A DNA stretch of 64,000 bases from Bacteroidota bacterium (lineage in GTDB: Bacteria > Bacteroidota > Bacteroidia > Flavobacteriales > Schleiferiaceae), in assembly GCA_024742495.1 (NCBI GenBank), contig JANSYJ010000007.1:62001-126000 (forward strand), in the 5' to 3' direction. This document shows, in pieces, positions 24,556 through 29,971 of this stretch. Positions within the stretch are counted from its first letter, which is position 1. Every line of letters starts with the position of its first letter. The notes below the pieces were generated by a model. The model ran no database searches. It was not told the DNA's origin and saw nothing but the letters and a program-made list of their open reading frames with translations. The translations under genes and the position numbers were made by a program.

Positions 24556-24563
24556 TACTTTTG
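24556..24563 (+). promoter_or_regulatory. -7 promoter box of the polysaccharide/XrtF cassette
   Basis: TACTTTTG matches TAnnTTTG. Transcription would begin near 24570, which makes the ATG at 24612 the more natural start of the next gene than the one at 24573. No good -33 element was found. Confidence 0.55.
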
Positions 24564-24611: not shown

Positions 24612-26546
24612 ATGTTAAGGAGGTTTATTCTTCGTAATTCAGATCGCTTTCTCTCTAGATGGATTGTTCTCTTTTTTGATCTATCCATAGTTCTAGGAGC
24701 ATATCTAATTTCAGTTGTTTTAAGGTTCAATTTCGAGTATTCCACCATATCTGAGGGGATAACGATTGAAAAATTACCACTCGTTGGGATGGCTTACCTT
24801 ATTGGCTTTGCTTTCTCGAGATCTCACATTGGGGTTATCCGACATACGGGTATCAGCGATGCCTTGAATATATTTAAAGGGACTTCTATCGCCGTTGTTT
24901 TAATCGGGTCGATATCATCTGTGGTTCTTTATGGTTTTCCTGATTATCTGAAGTTTTTCTATGTACCTAATTCGATCATATTAATTCACTTTCTCTTGAG
25001 TGTTGTGGTACTTATTGGTACCAGATTCATGGTGAAATTATTATATAATAGATTTCAGAGTTCACGTGAGTTTAAAGCTACTCGGGTAATGATTTATGGG
25101 GCTGGAGCTTCAGGGATTATTACCAAGAACACCCTGCAACATGATACGAGTAGGGAGTATGAAATAGTAAATTTTGTGGATGATAATCCAAGTAAAATTG
25201 GAAAGTCCATCGAGGGAATTCCAATAATAAGTAATGACAAGGCTTTTTCAGTAGGACATTTAACAAAGCATAAACTAAGTGAGGTCATTATCTCAATTCA
25301 ATCGGCACTACCTACCATTAAACGAAATGAGATTGTTGATCAATGTCTGCAACAGAACTTACAAGTTAAGGTTGTACCGCCGGTTACCAATTGGATTCAA
25401 GGGGAGCTGAGTGCTAAACAAATTAAATCTGTTCGGATTGAGGACCTCTTGGAAAGAGAGCCCATTGTATTGGACAGTGAAAACGTAAAAAGGGAATTAT
25501 ACGGTAAAAGGGTGCTGGTTACCGGTGCTGCAGGTTCCATTGGAAGTGAAATCGTAAGACAATGCATGCATTATGGTCCAGAGAAAGTGATTTTGTTGGA
25601 TCAGGCCGAGTCGGCCTTGTATGAACTTGAATTAGAGCTTAAGAGTAAGTTTAAAAACTTTCATGATAAGGCGAATTGTGTAATTGGTGATGTTCGCGAT
25701 TATTCTAGAATGCGCCGCATTTTTGACGTATTCCGACCAGACATTGTTTTCCATGCCGCAGCCTATAAGCATGTTCCTTTAATGGAGGACAATCCCTACG
25801 AAGCGGTGGGAGTAAACGTTTTAGGAACGAAAAACATTGCAGATTTAGCAGTTGAATTCAACTCGGAAAAATTTGTAATGGTTAGTACGGATAAGGCGGT
25901 TAACCCTACCAATGTGATGGGGGCTACGAAACGTACGGCTGAGCTTTATACTCAAAGTTTAGGTCAGCAAAGAAACTGTAATACTCAGTTTATAACCACG
26001 CGTTTTGGTAATGTGTTGGGCTCTAATGGTTCGGTAATCCCGGTTTTTAGAAAGCAAATTGCAAAAGGAGGACCTATTACTGTTACCCATCGCGATATCA
26101 CTCGCTTTTTCATGACAATCCCAGAAGCTTGTAACTTGGTATTAGAAGCTGGGTCTATGGGGAAAGGCGGTGAGATTTTCGTTTTTGATATGGGTGAGTC
26201 GGTGAAGATTTATGATCTCGCTAAGAAAATGGTAAAACTTTCTGGACTTGAACTCGGCAGGGATATAGAAATCGTGGAAGTTGGTTTAAGACCAGGTGAG
26301 AAGCTTTATGAGGAATTACTGACCGGTAAGGAGAACACCTTAGCCACACATCATAAAAAAATACTCATCGCAGAAACGCAAACCTTGCAATATTCTCAAC
26401 TGTTAATGGCGCTAGACCGCTTAGAAACGGCGCACAGAAGCAATGATAATCTGGATTTAGTGGCCTCCTTAAAATCTATTGTGCCGGAGTACATCAGCAG
26501 GAACTCTATCTTCGAGAGCTTAGATTTACAGACTTCAGTTCAATGA
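24612..26546 (+). CDS. Membrane-bound UDP-sugar 4,6-dehydratase (WbpM/CapD/FlaA1 long form)
   Basis: The 644-residue protein has four N-terminal membrane helices (to about residue 145), a CoA-binding-like Rossmann domain (VMIYGAGASGIITKNTL) and the catalytic SDR domain starting at TGAAGSIGSEIVRQ (about residue 305). AAYKHVPLMEDNPYEAV and STDKAVNPTNVMGATKR follow. The Met-x-x-x-Lys in NVMGATK fits the WbpM-type Ser-Met-Lys subclass. These enzymes dehydrate UDP-GlcNAc for O-antigen or capsule sugars. It overlaps the next gene by 4 nt, opening a four-gene cassette. The start at 24573 would add 13 residues. Confidence 0.93.
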   Translation: MLRRFILRNSDRFLSRWIVLFFDLSIVLGAYLISVVLRFNFEYSTISEGITIEKLPLVGMAYLIGFAFSRSHIGVIRHTGISDALNIFKGTSIAVVLIGSISSVVLYGFPDYLKFFYVPNSIILIHFLLSVVVLIGTRFMVKLLYNRFQSSREFKATRVMIYGAGASGIITKNTLQHDTSREYEIVNFVDDNPSKIGKSIEGIPIISNDKAFSVGHLTKHKLSEVIISIQSALPTIKRNEIVDQCLQQNLQVKVVPPVTNWIQGELSAKQIKSVRIEDLLEREPIVLDSENVKRELYGKRVLVTGAAGSIGSEIVRQCMHYGPEKVILLDQAESALYELELELKSKFKNFHDKANCVIGDVRDYSRMRRIFDVFRPDIVFHAAAYKHVPLMEDNPYEAVGVNVLGTKNIADLAVEFNSEKFVMVSTDKAVNPTNVMGATKRTAELYTQSLGQQRNCNTQFITTRFGNVLGSNGSVIPVFRKQIAKGGPITVTHRDITRFFMTIPEACNLVLEAGSMGKGGEIFVFDMGESVKIYDLAKKMVKLSGLELGRDIEIVEVGLRPGEKLYEELLTGKENTLATHHKKILIAETQTLQYSQLLMALDRLETAHRSNDNLDLVASLKSIVPEYISRNSIFESLDLQTSVQ

Positions 26547-28135
26547 GCAAGACACTAAGGCTTGCCCTTTTATTCCTCGTCGGATTTAGCCTTAAAGCGC
26601 AGTACCAGTTTCGTCAGATAAACACCCTTAATAATCTAAGGGAGGATGCTCTGATTTATGAGCAAGCTTCCTTCCATACCTCTATTAGACCCTTTAATAG
26701 GCGCCTTGTAGATTCAATTTCCAGTCCGAATATAATTAGAGGATCAGGCTCCTGGTGGAATAGGAAATTATGGTATGAAAACTTAGTGCGCATTGAAACG
26801 GATGACTATGCCTTTACGGTAGATCCTGTGGTTAATTTACAATTAGGATATGAGCCCAATCAGGATTATAGGTTTATAAATACGCGAGGTTACAACGTCT
26901 CGGGGAGGATAGGGAGGAACCTTAGTTTTAGATCTATCTTTTTAGAAAACCAAGCCCGTTTTCCGGACTACATTAAACATTACAGTTCAATACGAAGAGT
27001 AATTCCGGGTCAAAGCTCCCTTACGAGAAGTTTTGGCGAGACGGCATTGGATTACACATATTTCGAAGGTGAAATTAGTTATAAACCAAATCAGTTCTTC
27101 AATTTCACTGCAGGTCAAGGTCGAAACTTTATTGGCGAAGGCCATCGATCATTACTGCTATCCGATGCAAGTTTTTCCTATCCATTTTTTAGAATTGAAA
27201 CTGATGTTTGGCGGATTAAGTACGTGAACCTGTGGGCGCAATTGTATGATCCGAGAAGGGAGGCTCAGGTGAATAAGGGTGTGCTTGCTAAAAAATACCT
27301 AAGCTCGCACTACTTAAGCATTAATCTAACGGATCGTTGGAATTTCGCAATATTTGAATCGATTGTTTATGGCGATACCAATCAGTTACAAGCTTTAGAT
27401 GTAAGCTTTTTAAACCCGGTAGTTTTTTATCGGCCTGTAGAGTTTGCAGTCGGTTCTAGAAATGGTAATGCCTTACTCGGAGCCAATAGTTCCTATAAAT
27501 TTAAAAAGGGCTTAGTAGCTTATGGTCAATTTGTATTAGATGAATTTAGAATTGCAGCTATCCTGGGCAATGAGGGCGATTGGACTAACAAGTTTGGCTG
27601 GCAAATTGGCTTTAAAGATTACAATGCTTGGGGCATTGATGGCTTGTTTCAAAGGTTGGAGTATAATGCCGTTCGACCCTATACCTATTCTCATAGAGTG
27701 GTACTAACTAATTACGCGCATTATGGCAGTCCACTGGCGCATCCTTGGGGAGCTAATTTCCATGAAATAGTATTTCAAAATATTTATCAAAGGGATCGCT
27801 GGGAATTTGATTTTCAATTCACCTTTGGCCTGGCGGGAAATGATCGCCAGGGTGAAAACTGGGGCTCTGATGTTTATCAGTCTTATGAAAGTAGAGTCCA
27901 AGATTTAGGAAATGATATCGCGCAAGGGGCCACTGGGAAATACTATTATACCCATTTAAGAGCGGCCTATGTCTTAAACCCTCCTGATGGTTTAAAATTA
28001 GAGGCTGGATTTAGATATCGTTACTTTGATAGCAATACCGACCAATCAGCAGATATTTCAATGTTGCAAACACAAAGCACTTGGTTTTTTGTAGGCTTAA
28101 GGACAGAATTATTTAATCAATATTTTGATCTATAA
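26543..28135 (+). CDS. Outer-membrane barrel protein, RemB/Wzi-like (tentative)
   Basis: The 530-residue protein has a signal peptide (MSKTLRLALLFLVGFSLKAQ) and a body rich in alternating aromatic/hydrophobic stretches, tyrosines and asparagines, ending in an aromatic strand (LRTELFNQYFDL), as in outer-membrane beta barrels. The pattern FTAGQGRNFIGEGHRSLLLSD and the exosortase/polysaccharide context suggest the capsule-assembly Wzi-like group, which in flavobacteria includes the gliding-linked protein RemB. That family call is by resemblance and not certain. It is sandwiched between the dehydratase (4-nt overlap) and xrtF (1-nt TAATG overlap), which supports a role in surface polysaccharide. 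Confidence 0.7.
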   Translation: MSKTLRLALLFLVGFSLKAQYQFRQINTLNNLREDALIYEQASFHTSIRPFNRRLVDSISSPNIIRGSGSWWNRKLWYENLVRIETDDYAFTVDPVVNLQLGYEPNQDYRFINTRGYNVSGRIGRNLSFRSIFLENQARFPDYIKHYSSIRRVIPGQSSLTRSFGETALDYTYFEGEISYKPNQFFNFTAGQGRNFIGEGHRSLLLSDASFSYPFFRIETDVWRIKYVNLWAQLYDPRREAQVNKGVLAKKYLSSHYLSINLTDRWNFAIFESIVYGDTNQLQALDVSFLNPVVFYRPVEFAVGSRNGNALLGANSSYKFKKGLVAYGQFVLDEFRIAAILGNEGDWTNKFGWQIGFKDYNAWGIDGLFQRLEYNAVRPYTYSHRVVLTNYAHYGSPLAHPWGANFHEIVFQNIYQRDRWEFDFQFTFGLAGNDRQGENWGSDVYQSYESRVQDLGNDIAQGATGKYYYTHLRAAYVLNPPDGLKLEAGFRYRYFDSNTDQSADISMLQTQSTWFFVGLRTELFNQYFDL

Positions 28136-28731
28136 TGCTCAAGGAATTTCGACCAACCATACTTTTTCTGGTTAAATTCTTGGGAATCTACCTTATTGGT
28201 AGTGCACTCTATGGTGTTTACATTGCAAACTATGATGCCAACAATGAATTGGATCCAATTACTCGCTGGGTAACCTACCAATGTGCTAATACAGCCAATG
28301 TTTTCGGTTATGAATATGCAGTTTTGGAGGATGATCACATGAACTGGAATAGTGAAGAGGAGCAAACCTTTGATAGTCTTTGGCTGAACTCTGATTACGC
28401 TATTTCTGTTGAGGAAGGATGTAATGGAATCAACATAATGATTCTTTTCATCGCCTTTGTTGTTGGCTTTGGGGGCAAGCTCCTAAACATGCTAATTTTC
28501 ATTCCTTCTGGCCTGCTCTTCATACATCTGGCAAACTTGGGACGATTGATGCTTCTTAGTTTATTAAACGTGGAGTTTGATGGCAGGGGTTTTCACTTTT
28601 TTCATAAATACGGCTTTACGGCTGTTCTCTACTTAGCCATCTTAATTCTTTGGTACTTTTGGGTAATGCGCTGGAGCGGAAAGGATAAAGTTGCGCCTAA
28701 AAAGATAAATCATGATCAAGGAGCTACTTAA
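28135..28731 (+). CDS. xrtF: Exosortase family protein XrtF
   Basis: The 198-residue multi-spanning protein has the exosortase/archaeosortase catalytic triad: Cys96 in VEEGCNGIN, Arg137 in HLANLGRLMLL and a His at 153 or 156 in GRGFHFFHKYGF. Membrane helices lie at about 8-30, 98-115, 117-135, 138-147 and 160-178. Exosortases are membrane transpeptidase-like enzymes that cleave C-terminal sorting signals of the PEP-CTERM kind and move proteins to the surface. Exosortase F is the Bacteroidota (mostly flavobacterial) form. The next gene encodes its usual partner. No clear sorting substrate was found in this window. Confidence 0.87.
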   Translation: MLKEFRPTILFLVKFLGIYLIGSALYGVYIANYDANNELDPITRWVTYQCANTANVFGYEYAVLEDDHMNWNSEEEQTFDSLWLNSDYAISVEEGCNGINIMILFIAFVVGFGGKLLNMLIFIPSGLLFIHLANLGRLMLLSLLNVEFDGRGFHFFHKYGFTAVLYLAILILWYFWVMRWSGKDKVAPKKINHDQGAT

Positions 28732-29182
28732 GGACCCCAAGCGATTAGGCTTGCTGATAGGAGGGAGTTGTGGTTTATTTCTGGTTTACTTTTTTCAACA
28801 TTATCTCGACTTTTACCATCTCTTTCAGTTTCAAGGTCCACAAAAGTTGCTTTACACCAGCGATTTCATAATCGTGGATCCCTTTGCCTTTAGCGTAAAC
28901 AAGGTATTTCGCTATTTGGTTAACGACCTTTGTGCAATGGCCCTTATTGCAGCCATTTTCCCCAATAGGAAGTATGTGCGATTTGCATTTTACGTGCTGC
29001 TCTTTGGTTTACTCGTTTTGGTGCCCATGTATATAAGCCTTTATTTAATTCAGCCTGTTGGCTTTAGCTCTCTATTAGGACATTTACATCGATTAGTAAT
29101 GAACCCCGTGCTAATGATGCTGCTTATTCCTGCTTTCTTCTATCAGCGAAAGCTGCAAAACCAAGCAGAAGCGTCAGAATAA
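28712..29182 (+). CDS. Exosortase F system-associated protein
   Basis: The 156-residue protein starts within the last 20 nt of xrtF. It has about four hydrophobic segments (RLGLLIGGSCGLFLVYFFQH, LCAMALIAAIFP, FAFYVLLFGLLVLVPMYISLYLI, VLMMLLIPAFFY) with a conserved-looking loop FVDPFAFSVNKVFRYLVND (preceded by YTSDFIIVDP). The pattern and place match the small protein that accompanies exosortase F in flavobacteria. Role unknown; it may be a subunit or substrate-handling partner. Confidence 0.8.
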   Translation: MIKELLKDPKRLGLLIGGSCGLFLVYFFQHYLDFYHLFQFQGPQKLLYTSDFIIVDPFAFSVNKVFRYLVNDLCAMALIAAIFPNRKYVRFAFYVLLFGLLVLVPMYISLYLIQPVGFSSLLGHLHRLVMNPVLMMLLIPAFFYQRKLQNQAEASE

Positions 29183-29281: not shown

Positions 29282-29971
29282 ATGAAAATCGCTAAACAAC
29301 TCTTATCTCTTAGTCTTGTTGCATCAATGTTTGTTGCTTGTAACAATGCCCCAGAAACCAATGTGGAGGCCGAAGAAGCCCAAGCAGTAGACGAAACTAA
29401 AACCGCTGAAGCAGCAAGCTACGCCGCTTTAACTGATGGCGACGAAATCTCTTGGAGAGGTTTTGAAACCCTTTCCGGTGATGACCATACTGGTGTAATT
29501 CAAGTGAGTGATGGAGAACTTAAAGTTGAAAATGGTGCCTTAGTAGGAGGAAAGATCGTAATTGATATGACTTCTATTAACGACCAAGATCTGGAAGGTG
29601 AGTACAAAGCTAAATTAGAAGGTCACTTAAAGAGTGCTGACTTCTTTGCAGTAGACTCATTCCCAACCGCCACTTTTGAAATCACCAATGTTGCGCCAAT
29701 TGAAGCTACCAACGACAGCATGGATGTGAACCAAAATATTACTGGTAACCTTACTCTTCGTGGTATAACTAAGAGTATCACATTTGCGGCTAAAGTAAGT
29801 GTAGATGACAACAATGTAAGCCTAATGGCAAACGACGTAAGAATTGACCGTAGCCAGTGGAACGTTCGTTTCCGTTCTACCTCATTTGCTGAATTTGCCG
29901 AGATCGCTAAGGAAAAAGTGATCGACAACACTTTAGAACTTCAAATTAATATGCAAGCTGCCAAAAGCTAG
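29282..29971 (+). CDS. YceI-family lipoprotein
   Basis: The 229-residue protein has a lipoprotein signal with lipobox FVAC (Cys20), an acidic linker (about 21-50) and a YceI lipocalin-like beta-barrel domain (SWRGFETLSGDDHTGVIQVS ... GKIVIDMTSI, NLTLRGITKSITFAAKV). Family members bind isoprenoid or fatty lipids in the periplasm or outer membrane. It is expressed from its own promoter and ends at a strong terminator, so it is an independent unit even though it follows the exosortase genes. Its C-terminus has no sorting signal, so it is not an obvious XrtF substrate. Confidence 0.93.
   Translation: MKIAKQLLSLSLVASMFVACNNAPETNVEAEEAQAVDETKTAEAASYAALTDGDEISWRGFETLSGDDHTGVIQVSDGELKVENGALVGGKIVIDMTSINDQDLEGEYKAKLEGHLKSADFFAVDSFPTATFEITNVAPIEATNDSMDVNQNITGNLTLRGITKSITFAAKVSVDDNNVSLMANDVRIDRSQWNVRFRSTSFAEFAEIAKEKVIDNTLELQINMQAAKS

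Follow-up and report, generated by a model that had tools for sequence, protein, structure and literature searches.

The exosortase XrtF is encoded in a four-gene cassette within a 64,000-nucleotide stretch of DNA (the window) from a Bacteroidota bacterium of the family Schleiferiaceae, order Flavobacteriales (assembly GCA_024742495.1, contig JANSYJ010000007.1). Our results indicate, with a probability that we place near 0.78, that XrtF sorts PID-CTERM proteins, which are secreted, very small and encoded at other places in the genome. This pairing is drawn from the family membership and intact active site of the enzyme, the PID-CTERM proteins of its own genome, the co-occurrence of the two families and the coupling of their genes, all of which were computed; from them we infer cleavage at the PID motif, the acceptor, what becomes of the released peptide and its role for cargo of the type IX secretion system (T9SS). 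A first-pass annotation of the window had reported no obvious sorting substrate. That holds for the window, where no open reading frame (ORF) of at least 35 amino acids (aa) matches the PID-CTERM profile at E≤1, and fails for the genome, which encodes three PID-CTERM-type proteins. These came to light in the genome-wide scan for C-terminal sorting signals that the annotation had proposed, and the substrate family so found is largely one already described, since PID-CTERM is an existing NCBI sorting-domain model (NF046080).

XrtF and the PID-CTERM proteins of its genome

The enzyme exceeds the cut-off of the XrtF model TIGR04128, retains the catalytic Cys, Arg and His and is accompanied by the TIGR04127 partner (Table 1), whereas its score against the XrtX model NF046081 (101.8 bits) falls short of the cut-off of 170, so that it is not a member of XrtX. 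An alignment of the window's exosortase with 39 others, many of them under the XrtF cut-off, showed Cys96, Asn134, Arg137, Leu141 and His157 to be invariant (40/40); stretch L086, in which no gene clustered with the others, was left out. The annotation had thus rightly described the catalytic site as intact, and the catalytic Cys has not been lost in relatives. An AlphaFold2 model of XrtF has a mean predicted local distance difference test score (pLDDT) of 94.0, and comparisons of sequence and of fold revealed no solved relative (best E 0.63 and 0.39, respectively).

The three PID-CTERM-type proteins (59 to 92 aa; 60, 59 and 92 residues as ORFs, with a later start likely for the third) share a signal peptide, some 12-15 further residues, the motif P-I-D/S/G, a glycine-rich helix and a basic tail, and none of their genes lies within the window. 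The first is a member of NF046080 (cut-off 26 bits), the match covering residues 29-52 of 60, near the C terminus, and the other two join the family only through A1, a profile that we built from 24 PID-type C-termini and used at E≤0.01. Proteins 1 and 2 belong to the training set of A1; protein 3 does not, although a similar protein from G342 does (G denotes a sampled genome, with G000 that of the window, and L a sampled stretch). An earlier, cruder filter for motif, helix and tail, applied to 40 XrtF neighbourhoods, missed the PID genes because it demanded at least 60 residues before the helix. The lead to the family came from small secreted proteins around the partner genes of G312, G336 and G310 and around G320, one of which passed the NCBIfam PID_CTERM cut-off (27.7 versus 26 bits).

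Only one other exosortase in the genome exceeds the cut-off of the general model. This is XrtK (128.3 bits), whose gene directly precedes that of an MSEP-CTERM protein (809.3 bits; G000:C30, L235:7153-10486). Since XrtK is paired with an MSEP-CTERM protein of its own, it is unlikely to process the PID proteins, and XrtF is therefore the enzyme left for them.

The TIGR04127 partner could itself be the dedicated substrate of XrtF, cut at the conserved RR-F-x-I-Q/N-P sequence that is followed by a helix and a basic end. This C-terminal end is the most conserved part of the partner (Pro132 is invariant in 22/22 aligned proteins), the AlphaFold2 model (mean pLDDT 87.7; no solved structure similar by fold, best E 3.2) breaks at 131-132 and finishes in a helix at 133-155, the partner and XrtF co-occur, and the published mutants discussed below agree (PMC10936215, in the parts of that article available to us). 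However, the partner is polytopic with several further conserved sites, any protein whose C terminus lies inside should have a basic tail behind its final helix, the gene may be far from xrtF (G312, G336 and G310), and PID proteins with the full signal exist in the same genomes, all of which makes the partner a most improbable substrate.

Co-occurrence of PID-CTERM proteins and exosortases

Of 296 Bacteroidota genomes (the phylum sample), 90 matched the XrtF model at E≤0.001 and were taken as exosortase-positive; 34 of these exceeded the model's cut-off. PID-CTERM proteins were detected with A1 in 61 genomes, all of them exosortase-positive (61/90, versus 0/206 of the negative genomes) and distributed over 13 of the 18 exosortase-bearing families. 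The frequency was 21/34 among genomes with XrtF over the cut-off and 40/56 among those with weaker matches. The order sample, 60 genomes from the order of the window, contained XrtF in 24 and the TIGR04127 partner in 21, all XrtF-positive; here a broader profile that includes Flavobacterium relatives (A3) found PID proteins in 18/24 XrtF-positive and 1/36 negative genomes, and NF046080 over its cut-off did so in 8/24 and 1/36, respectively. Fisher p values, which ignore the relatedness of the genomes, were 2e-41 for the phylum sample and 2e-9 for the order sample. All seven sampled genomes of the window's family carry both XrtF and PID genes (7/7), and a PID match was present in 229/299 genomes of the genus of G206.

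The two families are also neighbours in places. In L079, L080, L081 and L083 the gene immediately before the exosortase is a PID gene, and in L128 a PID gene comes immediately after XrtF and the partner. The order is cargo, PID, exosortase and a partner-like gene in G115, and XrtF, partner, PID and cargo in G320; in G049 and G146, XrtF, the partner, cargo, PID and a WbpM-like gene all fall inside about 10 kb.

PID-CTERM genes are often paired with T9SS cargo genes

Across much of the phylum, PID genes form the second member of a pair whose first encodes a surface protein bearing a T9SS type A tail. By a local profile, the nearest same-strand upstream gene encodes such a tail at 29/51 PID loci, compared with 15/672 other genes and 0/90 short genes of the same stretches. 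The 51 loci were drawn from the window's family, selected A1 hits of the phylum sample and XrtF neighbourhoods, their neighbours playing no part in the choice, and one cargo is counted twice among the 29 because two PID genes follow it. The spacing between cargo and PID gene is less than 100 bases in 27/29 cases, six of which overlap by 1-11 bases. Checked against NCBIfam, 28/38 upstream neighbours match TIGR04183 at E≤0.01. Since T9SS tails number 50 to at least 150 per genome (ten genomes counted, two of them with at least 150), adjacency by chance would be expected in a few per cent of cases.

The window's own genome follows this pattern in part. PID gene 1 (L160) lies 8 bases behind the gene of a 1639-aa propeller protein, whose T9SS tail is recognized by the local profile (20.9 bits, E 1.2e-5) and not by NCBIfam, and PID gene 2 (L161) lies 43 bases behind that of a 713-aa T9SS protein (TIGR04183, 25.8 bits, cut-off 23). 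PID gene 3 (L215) is near, not adjoining, two genes for large kelch proteins, the downstream one just under the TIGR04183 cut-off (21.3 versus 23 bits) and the upstream one without a match. A link between XrtF and surface polysaccharide, which the annotation had raised, is plausible from gene context, and in L076 and L077 a member of the dehydratase cluster likewise lies beside PID genes, cargo genes and XrtF; the strongest link that emerged, however, is that of PID genes with T9SS cargo.

PID-CTERM proteins as putative near-minimal substrates

The spacer between the probable signal-peptidase site, set at the first small residue that has Gln immediately after it, and the motif has a median length of 14 residues (range 10-59), as measured in 48 of the 50 distinct proteins among 52 hits; two proteins lacked the site, and in seven the search pattern ended two residues before the end of the motif. 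P, G, N, S, T and D together make up 68% of the spacer residues; K, R and H account for 2%. In the family of the window the spacer is near-constant in length, mostly 10-15 residues, and starts with Q-P; a Gln after signal cleavage is usual in Bacteroidota (the Q-rule). If both ends were cut, little beyond this spacer peptide would remain. Tandem cargo-PID pairs occur in L226 and L229 (G191 and G127), in which the PID proteins and the cargo tails are nearly identical.

The very shortness of the proteins invites another reading, in which they stay uncut as small membrane proteins of two helices and merely share an envelope pathway with XrtF; two cuts would leave little of them. We regard this as improbable, given that the C-terminal PID motif is far better conserved than the spacer and that PID proteins are limited to exosortase-positive genomes in the phylum sample and adjoin exosortase genes, as fits an enzyme-substrate pair.

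A candidate XrtF substrate in Flavobacterium johnsoniae

A genetic study of F. johnsoniae (PMC10936215), in the parts available to us, reports that deletion of xrtF (Fjoh_1448) or of its partner gene (Fjoh_1449) greatly reduced biofilm and abolished zorbs, and leaves the substrates of XrtF for future work. Deletion of Fjoh_0651, a hypothetical protein without a COG assignment that was complemented by a 434-base fragment including the presumed promoter, gave the same phenotype row as the Fjoh_1448 and Fjoh_1449 deletions. We identified a single PID gene with A3 in G474, which we take to be the genome of strain UW101, at 710501-710767 on the minus strand (88 codons; 31.6 bits, E 1e-6). Its provisional assignment to the family is based on A3, on a shared place beside the riboflavin synthase gene (named from our reading of its sequence) and on a plain C-terminal signal.

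By position and size this PID gene is most likely Fjoh_0651. The partner gene (447 bases) and the porZ-like gene (2283 bases) of G474 equal the published fragment lengths of fjoh_1449 and fjoh_0707 (PMC10936215, as available to us). Between the PID gene and porZ we counted 67 crude ORFs, 60 after removal of those under 60 aa and 56 after removal of four doubtful ones, compared with 55 (old tags) or 58 (RS tags) expected if the PID gene is Fjoh_0651. Among the genes up to about five places away, and setting aside the gene for ribosomal protein L32, it alone is short enough for a 434-base fragment to include a promoter as well. The shared phenotype row is consistent with the XrtF-PID pairing rather than specific to it, and Fjoh_0651 is a named candidate substrate whose deletion mutant, with a matching phenotype, already exists. 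A literature search with the Fjoh tags returned no paper other than PMC10936215.

Observations that weigh against the pairing

Several observations count against the assignment of PID proteins to XrtF. No A1 match was found in 29/90 exosortase-positive genomes, including 13 of the 34 in which XrtF exceeds the cut-off. In G317 a PID gene is present, yet the general model finds no exosortase at E≤1. The statistics ignore the relatedness of loci as well as of genomes. PID proteins 2 and 3 of the window's genome score under the NF046080 cut-off or lack a match, and protein 3 weakly matches another CTERM model (14.3 bits, cut-off 40). None of the NCBIfam models, NF046080 included, matches the PID protein of F. 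johnsoniae, and its gene is missed by A1 at E≤1; its phenotype row is shared by the porU, porZ and Fjoh_0334 deletions and is thus not specific (PMC10936215, in the parts seen). The PID gene of Flavobacteriaceae stands alone beside that of riboflavin synthase with no T9SS cargo directly upstream (L167, L217-L220). Finally, enzyme-dependent cleavage and transfer of the C terminus are predictions.

The accession NF046080 also directly adjoins that of XrtX (NF046081), not XrtF, which raises the alternative that PID-CTERM proteins are substrates of XrtX-type exosortases only and that XrtF acts on something else. The 13 genomes just mentioned, and a family (f2) in which only 2/6 have a match, fit this alternative. 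Nevertheless, A1 matched in 21 of the 34 genomes whose XrtF exceeds the cut-off, with at least four more contributed by A3 (G021, G057, G068 and G084), the window's genome encodes, besides three PID proteins, a single XrtF and a single XrtK that has its own substrate, XrtF and PID proteins coincide in every sampled genome of its family, and XrtF, partner and PID gene adjoin in G320. We therefore give this alternative little credence and retain XrtF as the probable sorting enzyme of PID-CTERM proteins.

Proposed mechanism

According to the mechanism that we propose, the substrates would be exported by a Sec signal peptide and would consist thereafter of a short proline/glycine-rich spacer (usually with Gln first), P-I-D/S/G/N, a membrane helix rich in glycine and alanine, and a cytoplasmic tail of basic character. 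XrtF, aided by the TIGR04127 membrane partner, would be the intramembrane cysteine protease/transpeptidase of this sorting and, as expected of its family, would cleave its substrates at the PID motif, at the outer surface of the inner membrane, so that signal peptidase and XrtF together would release a peptide of about a dozen mostly uncharged residues. The new C terminus of the peptide would be handed to a nucleophile or acceptor, perhaps a glycan or glycolipid from the linked sugar genes. A glycan acceptor is plausible from the dehydratase of the operon and the sugar genes beside XrtF elsewhere, as we read their sequences, and the dehydratase is a possible source of it. As a guess, the conserved C-terminal end of the partner may help to present the substrate helix.

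Because the PID gene is paired with a T9SS cargo gene, a displayed peptide would most likely serve that surface protein. We advance only tentatively, at less than even odds, that it does so for the upstream protein by anchoring or by assembly with surface polysaccharide, in adhesion and biofilm formation. Less likely still is the full picture of two sorting systems wired together gene by gene, with XrtF converting each miniprotein into a peptide tag, roughly a dozen residues long and carried by a glycan or glycolipid of the surface, as the partner of the upstream T9SS protein, which the tag would anchor or assemble. If this were true, XrtF, PID miniprotein and T9SS cargo would constitute one surface-display module on which F. 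johnsoniae biofilm depends.

Relation to known sorting systems

The substrate signal is that of NF046080, as the first PID protein of the genome demonstrates, but the enzyme here is XrtF and not XrtX, the model misses many relatives of the signal including the one in F. johnsoniae, and its name says nothing of a coupling to T9SS cargo. In PEP-CTERM/exosortase systems (EpsH/XrtA), an intramembrane enzyme with Cys, Arg and His acts on a C-terminal signal of motif, helix and basic residues and has links to polysaccharide genes. The catalytic likeness is confirmed by our alignment, whereas the XrtF system differs in its PID rather than PEP motif, its near-minimal substrates and its TIGR04127 partner. 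The XrtK/MSEP-CTERM pair (TIGR04287/TIGR04286) is likewise a Bacteroidota exosortase with its own C-terminal signal, in this case in the same genome, but it has one large polytopic substrate adjoining the enzyme in place of scattered miniproteins. The T9SS provides a further parallel, in that PorU performs a sortase-like step by which the C terminus of cargo is joined to a sugar of the Wbp/Vim pathway, and the authors themselves raise the comparison with exosortases (PMC7468200, in the parts available to us). PorU differs in acting at the cell surface on large cargo, whereas the substrate of XrtF would be a separate miniprotein, processed in the inner membrane.

What would be new here is a sorting system with near-minimal substrates that is coupled to T9SS cargo. 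The coupling joins two surface-display systems that are usually handled separately and leads us to expect that sorting yields a short peptide. Our literature searches, outside whose scope lay subscription papers and NCBI notes, found neither the XrtF-PID pairing nor the T9SS coupling nor the Fjoh_0651 assignment. The term PID-CTERM did not occur in the literature searched, though the curators of NF046080 may already pair it with XrtF; XrtX returned only papers unrelated by title, and articles on exosortases and type IX secretion, in the parts available to us, gave no link between PID proteins and T9SS cargo.

Organization of the cassette and minor observations

The cassette was correctly laid out in the annotation as four overlapping genes, which run head to tail on the plus strand with overlaps of 4, 1 and 20 bases at the three junctions, and the identities that it gave to the partner, the dehydratase and the RemB-type barrel also stood. 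The start of the dehydratase is an internal ATG of an ORF that opens at 24561. The YceI protein has no C-terminal helix with a basic tail and was rightly dismissed as a substrate.

Table 1. Coordinates and profile support of the cassette, the following gene and the PID-CTERM-type proteins.
Feature	Position	Strand	Support
WbpM/FlaA1-like nucleotide-sugar 4,6-dehydratase	24612..26546	+	Pfam Polysacc_synt_2, 406.2 bits
RemB-like outer-membrane barrel	26543..28135	+	no Pfam/NCBIfam support; homologues in relatives
xrtF, exosortase XrtF, 198 aa	28135..28731	+	TIGR04128, 129.2 bits (cut-off 90)
XrtF partner, membrane protein, 156 aa	28712..29182	+	TIGR04127, 46.6 bits (cut-off 35)
YceI protein	29282-29971		next gene after partner
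PID protein 1	C30:248219 (A1), C30:248231 (NF046080)		A1 64.9 bits; NF046080 44.3 bits at C30:248231, 44.0 bits for the protein
PID protein 2	C30:361323		A1 43.3 bits; NF046080 15.0 bits, under cut-off 26
PID protein 3	C12:87325		A1 31.7 bits, E 6e-7; no NF046080 match

The order SpoIID, WbpM, barrel, XrtF, partner and YceI is retained in close relatives, with exceptions. The core order from dehydratase to partner recurs in L055, L057, L255, L257, L258 and L259, and there is no barrel at the corresponding place in L060 and L256. The named relatives found amount to 7 records labelled Flavobacteriales or more broadly, including uncultured Owenweeksia and Phaeocystidibacter luteus.

At E≤0.001 the barrel matches nothing in Pfam or NCBIfam. 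A homologue was present in all 12 genomes searched and adjoins XrtF in three (G342, G300 and G329), so that its linkage to the cassette, as drawn in the annotation, is real but limited to part of the window's family. Its position apart from XrtF in 9/12 genomes leaves a role for the barrel as a component of the sorting system unsupported. The F. johnsoniae homologue sits at 1.927 Mb, where RemB, which we take to be Fjoh_1657, would be expected from the position of XrtF.

The PID gene of G317 (L178:3709-3909) follows a T9SS tail on a 6-kb contig whose genes look broken up. The partner gene is far from xrtF in L125 and L126 (G312 and G336), and in L126 it has a 4-base overlap with the start of a 645-aa ORF; at G012:C2:331553-331955 it is in two pieces, one of which contains a stop. 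In L090 (10477-11460, G192) a protein with an IPTL-CTERM-like end (15.4 bits, cut-off 20.5) was set aside as a candidate, since it adjoins a different exosortase-like gene and matches other models. An exosortase domain is fused to an apparent glycosyltransferase in one 486-aa ORF of L117 (9073-10533, G099), and the related stretches L123 and L124 have two neighbouring genes in its place.

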